From Thermoprotei archaeon (lineage in GTDB: Archaea; Thermoproteota; Thermoprotei; QMSL01; B3-G16): DNA of 64,000 nt. Under the pieces are notes generated by a model. It made no database searches. It was not told the origin of the DNA and saw nothing but the letters and a program-made list of their open reading frames with translations. The stretch spans positions 1-64,000 of the forward strand of contig JAGGXX010000027.1 in assembly GCA_021162845.1 (NCBI GenBank), written 5' to 3'. Shown here piece after piece: positions 38,720 to 46,640 of this stretch. Within the stretch, counting starts at the first letter, position 1. Every line of letters begins with the position of its first letter. Made by a program: the position numbers and the translations under genes.

Positions 38720-39421
38720 ATGTCCAAGAGAGTCGTCAAGGGTGTAGCTATAGCTAAAGGCATAGAGGAACCGATAGAAGCAGCCAAGGGGTTATTAAGG
38801 AGGCTAGGGTTAAAGGGCGATCGGATAGGACGGGCATGCCTCGTTTGGATACCCTTCATGCTGATATCTTATGAGGACAAGAATATGAAGCAGAGACAGC
38901 TCTGCATAGATTCCTTTTTTATAAATAAATTAGCTAGTAGGCTTAATGTGGTGTTCTTGATAAGGAACAGTATGTTAAGATATGGGGTTTGCGAACTCAG
39001 GGTAAGCGAATGGGAGATATTGCCCCTAGAGTACCTGCGACCTGAAGAGGTGCTAGAGATCATAAAGGAAGCATATATGGAGGCGGAAAGATATTACGTT
39101 GAATTGAGGAAGCGCATGAAATTTGGTACGAACTTTTACCCTGAGCTAGTCCGTAGGCTGCGCAACTTACTTTTCATTAAGGATCTCCTCGGGATCATAG
39201 GGCGCATTGAACACGTCCGTAACATAGCGCTTAAGGACTACGTATATTATCCTGAGGTCCTAGTGGAGGTCGGACGCAAGGATATGAAGCCTTTAATGAT
39301 CAGCATGGGCGGTGAAGTGAAGATAGATAGCGTTTATTCATGGCTTATAGAGAAGGATCCACTATTTGAGAAATGGGTCATGACCCTTATCAATCACTAT
39401 CATAGAGATGACAGGCTATGA
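38720..39421 (+). CDS. Hypothetical protein (start trimmed to MSKRVVKG at 38720)
   Basis: ORF follows the methyltransferase; the 38603 start in the track would overlap it by over 100 bp. Confidence 0.65.
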   Translation: MSKRVVKGVAIAKGIEEPIEAAKGLLRRLGLKGDRIGRACLVWIPFMLISYEDKNMKQRQLCIDSFFINKLASRLNVVFLIRNSMLRYGVCELRVSEWEILPLEYLRPEEVLEIIKEAYMEAERYYVELRKRMKFGTNFYPELVRRLRNLLFIKDLLGIIGRIEHVRNIALKDYVYYPEVLVEVGRKDMKPLMISMGGEVKIDSVYSWLIEKDPLFEKWVMTLINHYHRDDRL

Positions 39422-40382
39422 AATGACCGGGCTCTATCTCCTTAAATTCAGGTTCCTCCTTCTGACATATGGGCTTCGCGAAAGGACATCGAGGATGGAA
39501 CCTGCAACCTGGTGGTATATTTATCGGACTGGGTATCTCTCCCTTTATCGGTATCTCACCTATCTTAATCTCCGGATCAGGTACGGGCACGGCCGCTAAC
39601 AGGGCCCTCGTGTATGGATGTAGGGGACTTTCCATTATGTCGTCTATGTCGCCTAATTCCACTATCTTGCCTAAGTACATTATCGCGATCCTATCACACA
39701 CATATCTAGCAGTGGCGAGGTCGTGCGTTATATATAGGTAGGTAAGACCGTATTGCTCCTTAAGATTGAGCATTAGGTTAAGCATCTCAGCCCTTATGGA
39801 CATATCGAGCATGGATATCGGCTCATCAGCTACTATGAACTTAGGCCTCAGCACTAGGGCCCTAGCTATAGCTACCCTCTGCCTTTGACCACCGGAGAGC
39901 TCATGAGGATAACGGTAGAGGAACTCCTCAGGGGGTATTAGTTGAACTGACTCGAGGATCTTGCAGATTATCTCAAGGCGTTCCTCTTCATTCTCCCCTA
40001 TACCGTGAACCCTTAGGGGTTCCGCAATTATATCATAGATGGTCATCCTAGGGTTCAGTGACTCGTAGGGATCCTGAAATATTATCTGCATACGCCTGCG
40101 GTATGGCTTAAGCTCTCTGGAGCTCAGCTTTGTTATATTGGTCCCCTCAAAATATATCTCACCCTCTGTCGGCTCAATGAGCCTGAGTATTAGCCTGCCA
40201 GTAGTCGTTTTACCACTTCCGCTCTCGCCAGCTAATCCGAATATCTCGCCTTTGCGGATTTCAAATGTAATGCCGTCAACCGCACGTACATAGAGCTCGC
40301 GACCAAAAAGAGAAGAGAAGAAGCCCTTCCTAAGCGGGAACCATTTCTTAAGATTAACCACTCTCACTAAGGCCTCGGGCAT
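39390..40382 (-). CDS. Oligopeptide/sugar ABC transporter ATP-binding protein (OppF/DppF type)
   Basis: 330 aa; 'GESGSGKTTTGRLILRL', 'LSGGQRQRVAIARAL', C-terminal oligo_HPY 'GCRFHPRCPFA'. Confidence 0.93.
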   Translation of the reverse strand: MPEALVRVVNLKKWFPLRKGFFSSLFGRELYVRAVDGITFEIRKGEIFGLAGESGSGKTTTGRLILRLIEPTEGEIYFEGTNITKLSSRELKPYRRRMQIIFQDPYESLNPRMTIYDIIAEPLRVHGIGENEEERLEIICKILESVQLIPPEEFLYRYPHELSGGQRQRVAIARALVLRPKFIVADEPISMLDMSIRAEMLNLMLNLKEQYGLTYLYITHDLATARYVCDRIAIMYLGKIVELGDIDDIMESPLHPYTRALLAAVPVPDPEIKIGEIPIKGEIPSPINIPPGCRFHPRCPFAKPICQKEEPEFKEIEPGHFIACHLYDSD

Positions 40383-41359
40383 TATGCGCTCCCCTCTTCA
40401 ATCTTATGACAGACCACGTATCGATCCCTTCCAAGTCTAACGAGGGGTGGTGGCTCTTGCCTGCATATCTCATCAGCGTAAGGACATCTAGGATGGAAAG
40501 GACACCCGCTTGGAGGGTTAAGCAGATCAGGTGGCGTGCCTGGAATAGACCGTAACTTCTTCTTGGGACCTCGTATGCTAGGTATCGCCGCGATTAAGCC
40601 TTGCGTGTAGGGATGCAGAGGATTCTTGAAGATGTCATACGCGCTACCGTACTCCATGATCTTTCCAGCGTACATTATCGCGACCTTATCACAGATCTCA
40701 GATATTATGGATAGATCATGAGTTATCAGAATTAAGCTGAGGTTTAGCTTAGCCCTAAGATCCTTAAGGAGCTTCAATATCTGAGCCTGCACTATGACGT
40801 CAAGAGCGGTTGTTGGCTCATCAGCTATCACTATATCGGGATTACAGGCTAGTGCCATCGCGATCATGACTCGTTGCTTCATCCCCCCACTAAATTCATG
40901 AGGATAATTGTCGGCTCTTGAAGGAGGTATTCCAACGAGTTTAAGTAGTTCCCTAGCCCTCCTATGCGCTTCTTCCTTGGTGACGTCTTCGTGTAATAGT
41001 ATTGCCTCGGCTATCTGGTCTCCAACCCTGAAGACCGGATTTAGGGCGTTCATAGCTCCCTGAAAGACTATTGAGATACGCTTCCAGCGTATCTCCTTCC
41101 TAAGAGTTTCCTCGTTCATTTTAAGGATATCCCTTTCCTCGAGTAATACGGACCCGTCGATTATGCGGGCATTAGAGGGCAAAATCCTTAGCAACGTTAA
41201 AGCCAGGCTACTCTTACCACAACCGCTCTCACCGGCTATGCCTAGCGTTTCACCCTTACCCAGGTTAAATGAAACTCCATCGACCGCCTTAACGAAACCT
41301 CGTCCTACTTGATAATACATCCGCAGGCTCTCTACGCTTAGTAAAGGCATGTGATGCAC
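40382..41359 (-). CDS. Oligopeptide/sugar ABC transporter ATP-binding protein (OppD/DppD type)
   Basis: 325 aa; 'GESGCGKSSLALTLLRI', 'FSGGMKQRVMIAMALACNPDIVIADEPTTALDV', 'GCPFHPRCPYA'. Confidence 0.93.
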   Translation of the reverse strand: MHHMPLLSVESLRMYYQVGRGFVKAVDGVSFNLGKGETLGIAGESGCGKSSLALTLLRILPSNARIIDGSVLLEERDILKMNEETLRKEIRWKRISIVFQGAMNALNPVFRVGDQIAEAILLHEDVTKEEAHRRARELLKLVGIPPSRADNYPHEFSGGMKQRVMIAMALACNPDIVIADEPTTALDVIVQAQILKLLKDLRAKLNLSLILITHDLSIISEICDKVAIMYAGKIMEYGSAYDIFKNPLHPYTQGLIAAIPSIRGPKKKLRSIPGTPPDLLNPPSGCPFHPRCPYADEICRQEPPPLVRLGRDRYVVCHKIEEGSA

Positions 41360-41456
41360 CTCTTGTGATCAGCGAACATCCACTACCCTATTAATGGGCT
41401 CTCCTAGCAATTAAATATGGAGTATATTTAAATCTTATTTCTCAAGGGAGGAGCCC

Positions 41457-41948
41457 GTGTTTATCACTAGGAGATACGTAGAGGAGGAACTTGATAAACT
41501 TGGATTTAAGTCGCTCTGGGAGATACTTCTGAGTACGATAGTATCGTCAATTACTATTTTACTAAAGTTAAATTATTTCATGACTTTCATACCGCCACTC
41601 ACGTTGTCGTTAGTAAGTATGGCCATAACTTCGAGAAAAATGAGGAAGGTCAAGATGAATAGAACGATTAAGGTTAAAACCGTGAAGAGCGCTGGCTTAT
41701 TAGCCGCGTTTGCCTGTCTCCTCTCCATTAGCCCGTTATTATTAATCTATGTATTGGAGCCTAGAGAGTGGATCAGCTGGCTTTTCGGCATGCTTTTATG
41801 TTATCCCGTCTATGACCTGGTGACCGTCGTATACATAAGGGTATTCGAGGCGATTCACAAAATTAAGGTATACCAGTTCTATATCTTGGATCAAGAGGGC
41901 CGCGTAATCGAGAGTGGAATTAAGGCGAAACCCTGGCTTAACGCCTAG
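41457..41948 (+). CDS. Hypothetical membrane protein
   Basis: 163 aa with several hydrophobic segments; antisense-oriented inside the ABC operon. Confidence 0.55.
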   Translation: MFITRRYVEEELDKLGFKSLWEILLSTIVSSITILLKLNYFMTFIPPLTLSLVSMAITSRKMRKVKMNRTIKVKTVKSAGLLAAFACLLSISPLLLIYVLEPREWISWLFGMLLCYPVYDLVTVVYIRVFEAIHKIKVYQFYILDQEGRVIESGIKAKPWLNA

Positions 41949-43455
41949 CGCGAAGTCGAGGGTTCAGAAGCTCATCGATGGCGTAGCCAATGAATATGAA
42001 TGACATGGAGAGTAGGGCTATGGATAAACCTGGGGGAATCACCCACCACCAGTCGGTTATCGCTCCGTAATACTGAACGTCGTGTAGCATTCTACCCCAA
42101 CTCATGACATTCGGGTCGTAGAGGCCAAGCCAACTAAGCGCTGCCTCACTGACTATCGCTGAGGGCACTGAAAGGGCGAGAGCCACGTAGGCTAAGGAAG
42201 CTACATTAGGCAGTATATGCCTTACGATGATGATGGCCGTCCCAGCACCTATAGCTTTCGCGGCTTCAACGAAAGCCCGCTCTTTTAGGCTTAGAACCTG
42301 CGAGCGTATGACCCTAGCGAAGCCCATCCAACCTAAGAAGCCTATTAGGAATATCAAGTTCCATATAGACGCGCCCAGCACTGCAGTAAGGACCAGCAAT
42401 AGGGGCAACGTCGGAAGTACCAATAACATATCGGTAAAGCGCATTAATAGCTCATCCACCAGTCCGCCAACGTATCCGGAGATGAGCCCGACTACTAGGC
42501 CTACTGCTACTGAGAATATGGCTGAGAGGAGCCCTACCAGTAGTGATATCCTAGCCCCGTATAGGAACTGGGAGAAGAGATCACGCCCGTAAGCGTCAGT
42601 GCCCAGTAAACCGAAACAGGTACCGTATAACCTGAGGTAGAAATCATCCACATATACTTTGACTGTGCTCCCCTTCCTTAAGCCCTTTATCGAGAGCTCT
42701 ACTCCATACGTATAATCGCCACTTCTCGAGAATATGACGGATGCTGGATCCTTTAGCACTGACATGAATAACTTCACTCGAAGAGCGGCTTGATAGGAGT
42801 CTATAGGTGGCTGAGGGATAGCCCAGGATCCGTTTCTAAGACTGAGCAGGCTTAACGTATACTCCTTGCCATAAGCATCTTCTAGGAAGACCCTGGCTTT
42901 AATATAAACCCTATTAGGGCTCTCGTCGAATAATGCTACCCTAGCTGTAAAACGAGCTGGAGAACCATTATATGGGTAGTGGAACCTCACGTAGATACGA
43001 ACCTTAACCTCATTTGGGGTATTCTCGCTCCCCGAGATTAATAGAAGTAAGCTACCAGGACCGCTACCTCTGGGATATCCTACATCCTCGGAATGCCTAA
43101 GTTCTATCGGAAAGCCCTGAGGCTGTGCTTCGACCTTTATCCCCTTTGGCTTCGCTTTAAAGCTGGGATCTTCTATGGGCTCTAGGTTCATGCTAAGATG
43201 ATGAAGCCCGGGTAGATATCTAAACCAGAGAGGTTTAGCCCTAGGACCAGCTACGTACTTCGAGTAGACAGGGTCATAAGGCGTTAGATATGGAGCCAGA
43301 AGAGCTACGAGTATGTAGAAGACAAGTATAACGACGCCAGTAACGCCCTTTCTATTCCTAAGGAAGTGCCTTCCAAAGTCCTTGGATTTTCTCCATAGCA
43401 TCCTTAGCTTTACCTTATATGGATGTTCTAGCTTTCTCCCGTTTGACATGCACAT
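41938..43455 (-). CDS. ABC transporter permease (DppC/OppC type) with about 200-aa extracytoplasmic insertion
   Basis: 505 aa; 'LLGTDAYGRDLFSQFLYGARISLLVGLLSA', EAA loop 'EAAKAIGAGTAIIIVRHILPN'. Confidence 0.92.
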   Translation of the reverse strand: MCMSNGRKLEHPYKVKLRMLWRKSKDFGRHFLRNRKGVTGVVILVFYILVALLAPYLTPYDPVYSKYVAGPRAKPLWFRYLPGLHHLSMNLEPIEDPSFKAKPKGIKVEAQPQGFPIELRHSEDVGYPRGSGPGSLLLLISGSENTPNEVKVRIYVRFHYPYNGSPARFTARVALFDESPNRVYIKARVFLEDAYGKEYTLSLLSLRNGSWAIPQPPIDSYQAALRVKLFMSVLKDPASVIFSRSGDYTYGVELSIKGLRKGSTVKVYVDDFYLRLYGTCFGLLGTDAYGRDLFSQFLYGARISLLVGLLSAIFSVAVGLVVGLISGYVGGLVDELLMRFTDMLLVLPTLPLLLVLTAVLGASIWNLIFLIGFLGWMGFARVIRSQVLSLKERAFVEAAKAIGAGTAIIIVRHILPNVASLAYVALALSVPSAIVSEAALSWLGLYDPNVMSWGRMLHDVQYYGAITDWWWVIPPGLSIALLSMSFIFIGYAIDELLNPRLRARR

Positions 43456-43466
43456 CTACCCTCCTT

Positions 43467-44447
43467 TCAATCATACTTAATCCTAGGGTCCACGAAGCCG
43501 TAGAGTATATCGGCGATGAAGTTGGCTCCTATCACCGATACAGCGATAATGTAGAAGATAGCCTGAAGTATGGGGTAGTCCTGGAACTCGATGGCATTCC
43601 ATAACAAGGTACCCATGCCCTCCCATGAGAAGACAGTCTCCGTTAGTATGGCACCGGAGAATAATAAACCAAAGGCCATGGCCGCTTCGGTTATCAACGG
43701 GAGGAGCGCATTTCTAAGAGCATGCTTGAAGAGGATCGTCCTCTCGTCTAAACCCTTAGCTTTAGCCGTAACTATGTAGTCCTCCGTTAATACTTCGAGC
43801 AGGGCGCTTCTCATTAGTAGCACGTAGGTACCATATGAGAATAGAAAGAGCGTAGTCGCCGGGAGGAAGAGATGTCTGAGCATATCAACTACTTGGGGTA
43901 ACAGGCCCTCAGGCGGAGGCCTACTCATGGTTCCGGCGAGTGGAAAGAGCCTTAAGTAATAGCCGAAGACTAGCAAGAATATCATGCCCATCCAAAATGT
44001 AGGAAGCGCATATGTCAGGAGGGATGTAGTTACTGAGATAACATCGAATAACTTACCACGCTTATAAGCAGCTATAACGCCGATAGCAGTTCCGATGACT
44101 ATAGCTAATAGCGTGGATGTGCCCATTAATAGAAGCGTATTAGGAAGACGCGCCATTATCTCCTCCCTTACAGGCTTAAGCGAATAATAGGAGTAACCGA
44201 ACTGCCACGTGAACATGTTGCGTATATAATTTATATACCGAATATAGAGGGGCTTATCGAGGCCGAAGAGCTTCTTGAGGGACTCTACTTGTTCTGGACG
44301 TAAGCGCTTACTGCTAGCTATTATGGCCACGGGATCCCCCGGCATCCATTGGAAAATTAGGAAATTTAACGTAAGCACGAAGAATAAGAGGATCACATTG
44401 TATATAGTACGCCTGACTATGTAAGCCTTTAAGCCCATTAGGTTCAC
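43467..44447 (-). CDS. ABC transporter permease (DppB/OppB type)
   Basis: 326 aa; 'LLFFVLTLNFLIFQWMPGDPV', 'KAKGLDERTILFKHALRNALLPLIT'. Confidence 0.92.
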   Translation of the reverse strand: MNLMGLKAYIVRRTIYNVILLFFVLTLNFLIFQWMPGDPVAIIASSKRLRPEQVESLKKLFGLDKPLYIRYINYIRNMFTWQFGYSYYSLKPVREEIMARLPNTLLLMGTSTLLAIVIGTAIGVIAAYKRGKLFDVISVTTSLLTYALPTFWMGMIFLLVFGYYLRLFPLAGTMSRPPPEGLLPQVVDMLRHLFLPATTLFLFSYGTYVLLMRSALLEVLTEDYIVTAKAKGLDERTILFKHALRNALLPLITEAAMAFGLLFSGAILTETVFSWEGMGTLLWNAIEFQDYPILQAIFYIIAVSVIGANFIADILYGFVDPRIKYD

Positions 44448-44504: not shown

Positions 44505-46640
44505 CTAAACCGTCGGCCTTCTCTTGGCCCGTAAGTATACAACGGCCACTGCTATTATGACCACCACGACGACCACGGCAGCTATCACGGTAGTCCAGGG
44601 GAATGGTGCCTTAGCTTCCACTGAGAACGAAGCGGACCTAGTGAAGGTACCCAGAGGATTCGTGTACGAGGCATCTACCCTTAGCGTGTACTTGCCAGCC
44701 TCTGGAAGCTTTACCTTAGCTGAGTAGACACCACCTTCCTCATGACTTAGCGAGACCCTCGTGACCTCAGTACCATCCCTTAACACTATTAAGGTGGCGG
44801 TGGCGTTTAGCACAGGGTTTCCGAGGTAGTCAGTTATCTTAACCTGTATCGTCTTCTCCTCGCCTGCCGTAACGGATTCAGGAACTTCAACCGAGGATAT
44901 CGATATGGTCCTTCCAGGATGTCTCCTGAAGTAGTTGACGTTAGCCTTTAATAGCACGTACTCTCCCTTCTTATGCTCGACGAAGACGAAGGGACCACTA
45001 CCTATTAGACACGTCATGCCAGGCTTAATTGGATGTGGAACCTCGTCGGGCTCAAACGTGGTAGGATCTTTGACGTTCTTCCATATGTGCTCAGGCAATA
45101 TCGGTAACCCGCCAATCCAATGCAGAGCCCAGTAGCTCGTTGTATTGAGGTATACCTCTACCGTATAGTCGTCAGGCGTCTTCACGTCAACAACGTTTCG
45201 AACTTGAGCTATCCACTGGGGCGAGTTATAGTCCCTTAGGAAGGTTATTGTAAACGCTACATCCTTTGAGGTAACGGGTTCGCCATCATGGAATGTCGCG
45301 TTCTTAACTAAGTGGAACGTGAGTTTTAAGCCCTTGGTTCCATCAGGAGCGGTCCACGGATCGACGCTCCAGTCAGTGGCCAGCCAGGGCATGTCCTGCG
45401 ATAGGTTGTAGGGGTTAACGGCTATTAGAGTATCATAGATCTTATCAAGCACTAGCCAGTCCCAGTACCATTGGGCCTTATACGGGTTCAGGGTCTCGAC
45501 GTCACTCTTGAAGCCCCACTTTATGGTACCGCCTAACGGCCTGTCTTCTGGATGTGCGTTAAAGAACGTCCACCAGCTCCTAGGTCCAGCGCCTACTTCA
45601 TTGACTACACCCGCCCAGCCCGTCCTAACAGGGATTATGCCAACGTCTGACCAGAGAGGAATGAAGGGTACTTGCTCAGCAAGTATCTCCTGTGCCTTAA
45701 ACGCTGCCTCCCTTATCTTGCTGAGATCGCTTCCGTACTTGACTATCTCTACGTAATGATCATAGGTACTATTAATGAAGCCGACGTAGTTTAAGCTCCA
45801 AGGCTCAGGAGCCCAATACATGCTTGAGTGCCATAGATCATATAGGTAGTCAGGATCCCTGCTAAGCGACCAACCGCCTGTGTACAAGTGATAGTCATAC
45901 TCTATCATCACCTTCTGATAGCAGACCTTCCTCTCTATGACCCTTAAATCCACTGGTACGCCTATTGCTTGTAACTCCTTAGCGACCATCCTCGCGACCT
46001 CAGCTCTTCGCGGGTCGTCTGCCCTACCGTAAATTACTAGGGGTTCCATGTTCTTGCCAGTCTTGGGATCGTTTCTAATACCGTCCCCATCAGTATCCAC
46101 AAAGCCCAGTTCATCGAGGAGCTTGGATGCCATTTCGGGATCATAATCATATTTCTTCACATTGGGGTTGACCCAGAAGCTTAACACTGGAGGTATGGGG
46201 ATGTCAAGACGCATACCGAAGCCCTTAACAACCTCGCTTACTATCCTATCTTTGTCAACTAAATAAGCGATTGCCTGGCGGAACTTGGTCAGATTCGTGG
46301 GCCATCGCTGATTGTTGATATCTAGCTCGAACATACCTAAATCCACGAACTCATAGAGCTTGACATCAGTTAGCCCCTTAAACTCCTCCACCTTCTCAGG
46401 TGGTAAAGGCCAATCCATTAGGTCTATCTCACCGGTCTTTAATGCAAGTGCTTCCGCTTCAGGATTCATGTATATCTTTATCAATAGGTAATCGACTCTA
46501 GGACCTACTTTTTCGAACTTCTGCTCCTCCTGCGCCTTAGCCCCTGGAAAGGCAAACATAGGGACCAGCGCTAAGACCATGAAGCATATAAAGGCGATCG
46601 CGAGGACTTTCCCCTCTAGAGTGCGATTTTCCGATATCAT
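44505..46640 (-). CDS. ABC transporter substrate-binding protein (SBP_bac_5), permuted lobes, C-terminal Ig-like domain and TM anchor
   Basis: 711 aa; C-lobe motifs ('NPEAEALALKTGEIDLMDWP', 'FRQAIAYLVDKDRIV') precede N-lobe motifs ('GGTIKWGFKSDVETLNPY', 'TFHDGEPVTSKDVAFTI'); ends '..VIAAVVVVVVIIAVAVVYLRAKRRPTV'. Confidence 0.9.
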   Translation of the reverse strand: MISENRTLEGKVLAIAFICFMVLALVPMFAFPGAKAQEEQKFEKVGPRVDYLLIKIYMNPEAEALALKTGEIDLMDWPLPPEKVEEFKGLTDVKLYEFVDLGMFELDINNQRWPTNLTKFRQAIAYLVDKDRIVSEVVKGFGMRLDIPIPPVLSFWVNPNVKKYDYDPEMASKLLDELGFVDTDGDGIRNDPKTGKNMEPLVIYGRADDPRRAEVARMVAKELQAIGVPVDLRVIERKVCYQKVMIEYDYHLYTGGWSLSRDPDYLYDLWHSSMYWAPEPWSLNYVGFINSTYDHYVEIVKYGSDLSKIREAAFKAQEILAEQVPFIPLWSDVGIIPVRTGWAGVVNEVGAGPRSWWTFFNAHPEDRPLGGTIKWGFKSDVETLNPYKAQWYWDWLVLDKIYDTLIAVNPYNLSQDMPWLATDWSVDPWTAPDGTKGLKLTFHLVKNATFHDGEPVTSKDVAFTITFLRDYNSPQWIAQVRNVVDVKTPDDYTVEVYLNTTSYWALHWIGGLPILPEHIWKNVKDPTTFEPDEVPHPIKPGMTCLIGSGPFVFVEHKKGEYVLLKANVNYFRRHPGRTISISSVEVPESVTAGEEKTIQVKITDYLGNPVLNATATLIVLRDGTEVTRVSLSHEEGGVYSAKVKLPEAGKYTLRVDASYTNPLGTFTRSASFSVEAKAPFPWTTVIAAVVVVVVIIAVAVVYLRAKRRPTV

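Follow-up and report, generated by a model that had tools for sequence, protein, structure and literature searches.

Genes at the locus and order of the protein segments

The window, i.e. the whole stretch of 64,000 nucleotides that was analysed, contains a substrate-binding protein (SBP) gene that stands first in a complete dppABCDF operon, with all genes on the same strand, Table 1. The co-encoded DppB, DppC, DppD and DppF genes occupy 39390-44447. For the SBP gene, the reading frame given in an earlier note on this DNA is confirmed exactly; it starts with ATG and encodes 711 residues. To describe the order of the chain, we use a canonical profile made from 40 canonical relatives (487 positions), on which four core segments are set: A (1-190), B (191-338), C (338-415) and D (415-487).

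Table 1. The dpp operon in the window and the parts of its substrate-binding protein.
Feature	Position	Strand	Evidence
Permuted family-5 substrate-binding protein, 711 aa, ATG start	44505..46640	-	ORF; SBP_bac_5 E 3.5e-66, two reversed stretches
N-terminal signal peptide / hydrophobic helix, aa 1-37	46530..46640	-	helix aa 5-30 in the model
Segments B-C-D, first in the chain, aa 45-346 = canonical-profile positions 191-484	45603..46508	-	canonical HMM, 218 bits
Junction of ancestral C-terminus and N-terminus, aa 347-374, ~28 residues	45519..45602	-	gap between profile hits
Segment A, second in the chain, aa 375-576 = canonical-profile positions 5-190	44913..45518	-	canonical HMM, 138 bits; Pfam profile 4-146
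Ig-like (YtkA-like) domain, aa 584-655	44676..44891	-	PF13115 E 2.2e-9, above cut-off; beta strands in the model
C-terminal transmembrane anchor, aa 682-706	44523..44597	-	hydrophobic helix in the model
DppB permease	43467..44447	-	PF00528, PF19300
Enlarged DppC permease, 505 aa	41938..43455	-	PF00528 from aa 319; OppC_N aa 25-63
DppC insert of ~218 aa after TM1 and ahead of the core TM domain, predicted to face outward	42613..43266	-	homologous inserts in type-1 operons
DppD ATPase	40382..41359	-	ORF with Walker/ABC motifs; matches other operons
DppF ATPase	39390..40382	-	ORF with Walker/ABC motifs; matches other operons

The protein belongs to the SBP_bac_5 family, with a Pfam score of 224 bits against a cut-off of 32.4 and a whole-protein E-value of 3.5e-66. 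The match comes in two stretches: residues 47-272 align with profile positions 146-362, followed by a stretch (44916-45389) that aligns with positions 4-146, i.e. the single run from 1 to 368 of the canonical order is not found. A similar picture is obtained with phmmer for the best PDB relative by sequence, AppA of B. subtilis (1xoc), where residues 47-329 match chain positions 212-486 and residues 437-588 match 79-224. When the canonical profile is rotated at position ~195, the window protein is matched in one stretch with 324 bits, compared with 204 bits in the canonical order. All three comparisons agree with the reversed segment order claimed in the earlier note. The restart that it placed near 45540 corresponds to 'LGGTIKWG', starting at 45536, and both the Ig-like domain and the C-terminal anchor that it described are present, Table 1.

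Two other arrangements could be discarded. No full N-lobe is found upstream of the first segment; the nearest open reading frame on the upstream side encodes an unrelated membrane protein of 138 residues without a Pfam hit. Neither is the first half a second complete SBP; it holds profile positions 191-484.

Position of the cut and predicted fold

The earlier note described the protein as a C-lobe followed by an N-lobe. The reversal stands, but a clean lobe swap is excluded as the cut sits inside lobe I. In a comparison with DppA, whose chain crosses between the lobes around residues 260 and 479, the cut of the window protein (type 1, see below) falls within lobe I, between the elements 'NxxYFRRHPG' and 'GPRVDxxLI'. 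This lobe continues through the first ~50 mature residues of the window protein, and lobe II is uninterrupted. Judged from the sequence, the new termini would open in a surface loop.

The AlphaFold model (AF2, 19 aligned relatives) has a pLDDT of 90.0 and a pTM of 0.81, and predicts a single confident bilobed fold. The top Foldseek matches are AppA, NikZ, DppA and OppA, with E-values from 1e-20 to 1e-16, and the two methods together predict a two-lobed flytrap. The sequential Foldseek alignment covers ~290-345 columns of SBPs with ~500 residues, at TM-scores by target of 0.44-0.55; it reaches only the B-C-D part, as expected with segment A out of order. The model of a type-2 protein is weaker, with a pLDDT of 75, a pTM of 0.67 and ~340-390 Foldseek columns. 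In DppA an Asp contacts the alpha-amino group of the peptide. A DppA-type Asp for this contact is not evident in the window protein at 'GWSLSRDPDYLYD'.

Four rotations in one family

The window protein is not unique. A paralog at 73771-75831 on the same contig, outside the window and 27 kb from the gene described here, is 38% identical over residues 22-705 and has the same order, and the domain-order search proposed in the earlier note finds permuted members widely. Matches with E<1e-40 are present in 40 of 400 Thermoproteota genomes, mostly in the window order and some in other orders. Full-length co-linear relatives at 30-48% identity are spread over the Thermoproteota; among the named hosts are Thermofilum sp. 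NZ13, MAGs of Thermofilaceae and Thermofilales, Candidatus Culexmicrobium, Methanomethylicota and Bathyarchaeota.

A long type-1 family, of 800-1090 residues, is present in 177 out of 300 genomes (the order was checked in ~40). Its closest solved relative, 7fi3, is an archaeal OppA (Thermococcus kodakarensis). The homology extends across both halves, with query 387-679 matching chain 21-309 and query 104-299 matching chain 401-610. 7fi3 differs in having the canonical order, i.e. a non-rotated relative exists for the rotated long family. A fourth cut was considered for the long-family members of 920-1087 residues and rejected, as they contain an insertion only.

Four rotations were found: canonical ABCD, type 1 BCDA (the window protein), type 2 CDAB and type 3 DABC. 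The genome of the window itself holds ABCD, BCDA and DABC. Type 2 is found at L157, L158, L159, L163, L165, L167, L171, L173, L176, L177, L284 and L285, at L043:3881-6055(-) and at the bacterial L247. For L043, L158, L163, L165, L173, L176 and L284 the cut lies within lobe II, and it is this lobe that bears the C-terminal anchor. In genome G064 a type-2 SBP is seemingly present in two distant frames, one with C, D and the start of A and the other with the rest of A and B (L286 and L287).

Type 3 is represented by C45:7782-9719 (L217/L003) in the window's own genome, where segment D has moved to the start of the chain, preceded by a TM anchor, by seven relatives at 44-50% identity, and by L290. 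These proteins are missed by Pfam because its model spans only the middle of the family. Beside the type-3 set there are type-1 sisters at 42-46% identity (G007, G021, G049, G339 and others) and a canonical relative at 37% identity (L230), so that a single shallow clade contains three topologies.

Of 25 Thermoproteota genomes drawn evenly, 18 hold type-1 proteins, 23 in all. The same set has three proteins of type 2, at least two of type 3, and ~27 canonical-looking proteins, some of these without a type-3 check. The Bacillota MAG UBA5389 (L247-L250) has three type-1 SBPs and one of type 2, with an enlarged DppC in the type-1 operon on L248. Archaeal contamination was considered for these 'Firmicutes' permutants and rejected, as the neighbourhood of the type-2 gene, a stretch of 61% GC, includes an ORF whose sequence reads as SpoIVA-like.

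Membrane anchors and enlarged DppC

A C-terminal TM helix is present in 28 of 29 long type-1 proteins, 25 of 33 short type-1 proteins and all ten archaeal type-2 proteins. It is found in none of the eight type-3 proteins and none of their eight type-1 sisters; these have an N-terminal TM helix in eight and seven cases, respectively. The bacterial type-1 and type-2 proteins of UBA5389 have no C-terminal TM helix, therefore tethering cannot explain every case. Several rotated SBPs of the Bathyarchaeota type (L069, L073, L075, L087, L092) end in a dockerin-like 'DxDGDxxIDxxD' and the TM helix is absent.

The DppC insert of the window has no Pfam match. Between its first TM helix and the core TM domain, DppC is ~200-220 residues longer in the window and in all short type-1 operons measured except one. 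The inserts of the short type-1 operons are mutually homologous, that of UBA5389 included (E 3e-39). The operon of L266, a deep type-1 member, has an ordinary DppC without insert. The link between the permuted SBP and the enlarged DppC, suspected in the earlier note, holds with this exception in most type-1 operons. Among the canonical archaeal and type-2 operons compared the insert is absent. Long-family operons have DppC inserts of similar size, with no detectable homology to that of the window. In type-3 operons the DppC starts are uncertain due to overlapping ORFs. The Spirochaete DppCs of 480-500 residues were considered as homologues of the window DppC insert and rejected, as they are not homologous.

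Number of origins

For the trees, the sequences were de-rotated in silico to the canonical order and aligned to one profile, with the groups set by chain order beforehand. The trees are quick ones and some branches are long. The tree of 97 rows contains 8 changes of order, compared with a mean of 38 when the labels are shuffled. An AU test was run on a subset of 47 rows. It rejects a single clade for all type 1 (delta lnL 260, p 1e-46) and for all type 2 (delta lnL 221, p 5e-41), and does not reject one clade of the long and short type-1 families (p 0.175). Canonical long-family genes were sought for the tree in one further group (28 genomes) and none was found.

A conservative count apparently gives two origins for type 1, two for type 2 and one for type 3, i.e. 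at least five rotations. Reversal through re-rotation is possible, for instance for L005/L096, which are canonical but fall within type 2 in the tree.

Interpretation and alternatives

The window protein is very probably a circularly permuted Dpp/Opp-type SBP, one case of a recurrent family-5 rotation in Thermoproteota. The ancestral C- and N-termini would be joined via the linker of ~28 residues, with the new termini in a lobe I surface loop after the 'NPxYW' strand, and the permuted chain is predicted to keep the two-lobed flytrap fold. From its family, the protein would bind an oligopeptide or oligosaccharide, and from its operon it would deliver the ligand to the DppBCDF encoded alongside. 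This flytrap role is modelled on E. coli, where the DppB scoop inserts into the DppA cleft (PMC12136057). The assumed route of origin is a tandem duplication followed by loss of the outer parts. On the conservative reading of the trees, the Thermoproteota family-5 SBPs would have undergone at least five rotations, using three cut points.

Our preferred, unproven explanation concerns the membrane. A terminal TM helix would anchor these SBPs to the cell surface, and rotation would thereby shift the tethered point, to the lobe I loop in type 1 and to lobe II in the other two rotated types. For the main lineage of type 1, the shift would be accompanied by the large extracellular DppC insert. Permutation may thus have a role in moving the tether. 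The more specific proposal, that recurrent adaptive rotation at three loops shifted the tether from one lobe of the flytrap to the other, and that the dominant type-1 lineage co-evolved a new extracellular DppC domain, is tentative, and we consider it less likely than not.

The main rival to the tether hypothesis is functional neutrality, to which we give a chance somewhat short of even. The termini would be close, several loops would tolerate opening, and rotated forms would have been fixed by chance, with the tether position and the DppC insert being incidental. The rotated bacterial members without C-terminal anchor fit this, as does the pairing of type 1 with the ordinary DppC of L266. With the type-3 proteins and their type-1 sisters anchored N-terminally there is no single tether logic, and recurrent origins at just three cut points are compatible with loop tolerance. 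However, type 1 has a long history and a very wide distribution (18 of the 25 genomes), and the homologous DppC insert accompanies it even in a bacterium.

Far less probable is a chimera, i.e. the C-terminal part of one SBP joined to the N-terminal part of another, an origin that has been considered for part of TpMglB-2. Such a fusion would likewise yield a reversed profile order. However, trees of the A-part and the BCD-part, made separately, give the same groups, again with 8 changes. Both recover the group of the window protein, the type-3 set and the two main groups of type 2. The two parts thus come from the same ancestral gene and we are dealing with rotations, not chimeras. This largely refutes the chimera, single members such as L247 being less firmly covered by the half-trees.

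An assembly error, gene decay or a misreading of two neighbouring partial SBP genes as one would suit a draft genome of 68 contigs in which a canonical SBP gene on contig C45 has a deletion with frameshift, but it is refuted by the two paralogs in the genome, the dozens of full-length relatives and the single-contig genomes with types 1 and 3 (G007, G011), and its probability is negligible.

The C45 gene, L042:2480-4278(+), has its ~50-bp deletion and frameshift near the type-2 cut, and is either a pseudogene or an assembly error. This gene looked divided exactly at the type-2 cut, and a split-gene origin of type 2 was therefore considered; it was rejected, as the comparison with L096 gives a deletion with frameshift and not a fission.

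The genuine circular permutation claimed in the earlier note is thus borne out by the profile order, the two paralogs, the dozens of co-linear relatives, the confident single fold and the congruent half-trees.

Relation to known systems

The window protein shares its family (E 3.5e-66), its predicted fold and its DppBCDF partners with DppA, OppA and AppA (cluster C, SBP_bac_5). Compared with these it adds the rotated order, the Ig-like domain, the C-terminal TM anchor and the enlarged DppC partner. TpMglB-2 (Tp0684) of Treponema pallidum is a natural circular permutant among the membrane-tethered ABC binding proteins, classified as 'Type Ic / Cluster Bc', and its authors likewise proposed a link between permutation and tethering for this cluster B permutant (PMC4990184). 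It resembles the window protein in being naturally permuted and membrane-tethered. However, it is a cluster B sugar SBP with a single cut, found in bacteria (mostly treponemes and Gram-positives), whereas the window protein is of family 5 (cluster C) and does not have the cluster B sugar-binding fold of Type Ic / Cluster Bc.

In the open-licence papers searched, we found neither a permuted family-5 SBP nor a description of several family-5 cut points, of their recurrence or of their spread over Thermoproteota. No permuted family-5 SBP was found in the CIRPIN preprint either. Circular permutation in family-5 SBPs therefore seems to be previously undescribed; natural permutation of an SBP is itself known from TpMglB-2.

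To our knowledge, natural circular permutation mostly turns up in a protein family as an isolated curiosity. The large transporter family described here has all four rotations of its four segments, several of them within one genome. As rotated forms exist at 42-46% mutual identity, the origin and the effect of permutation can be compared directly. Annotation that is blind to segment order has concealed a major trait of nutrient uptake in Thermoproteota.
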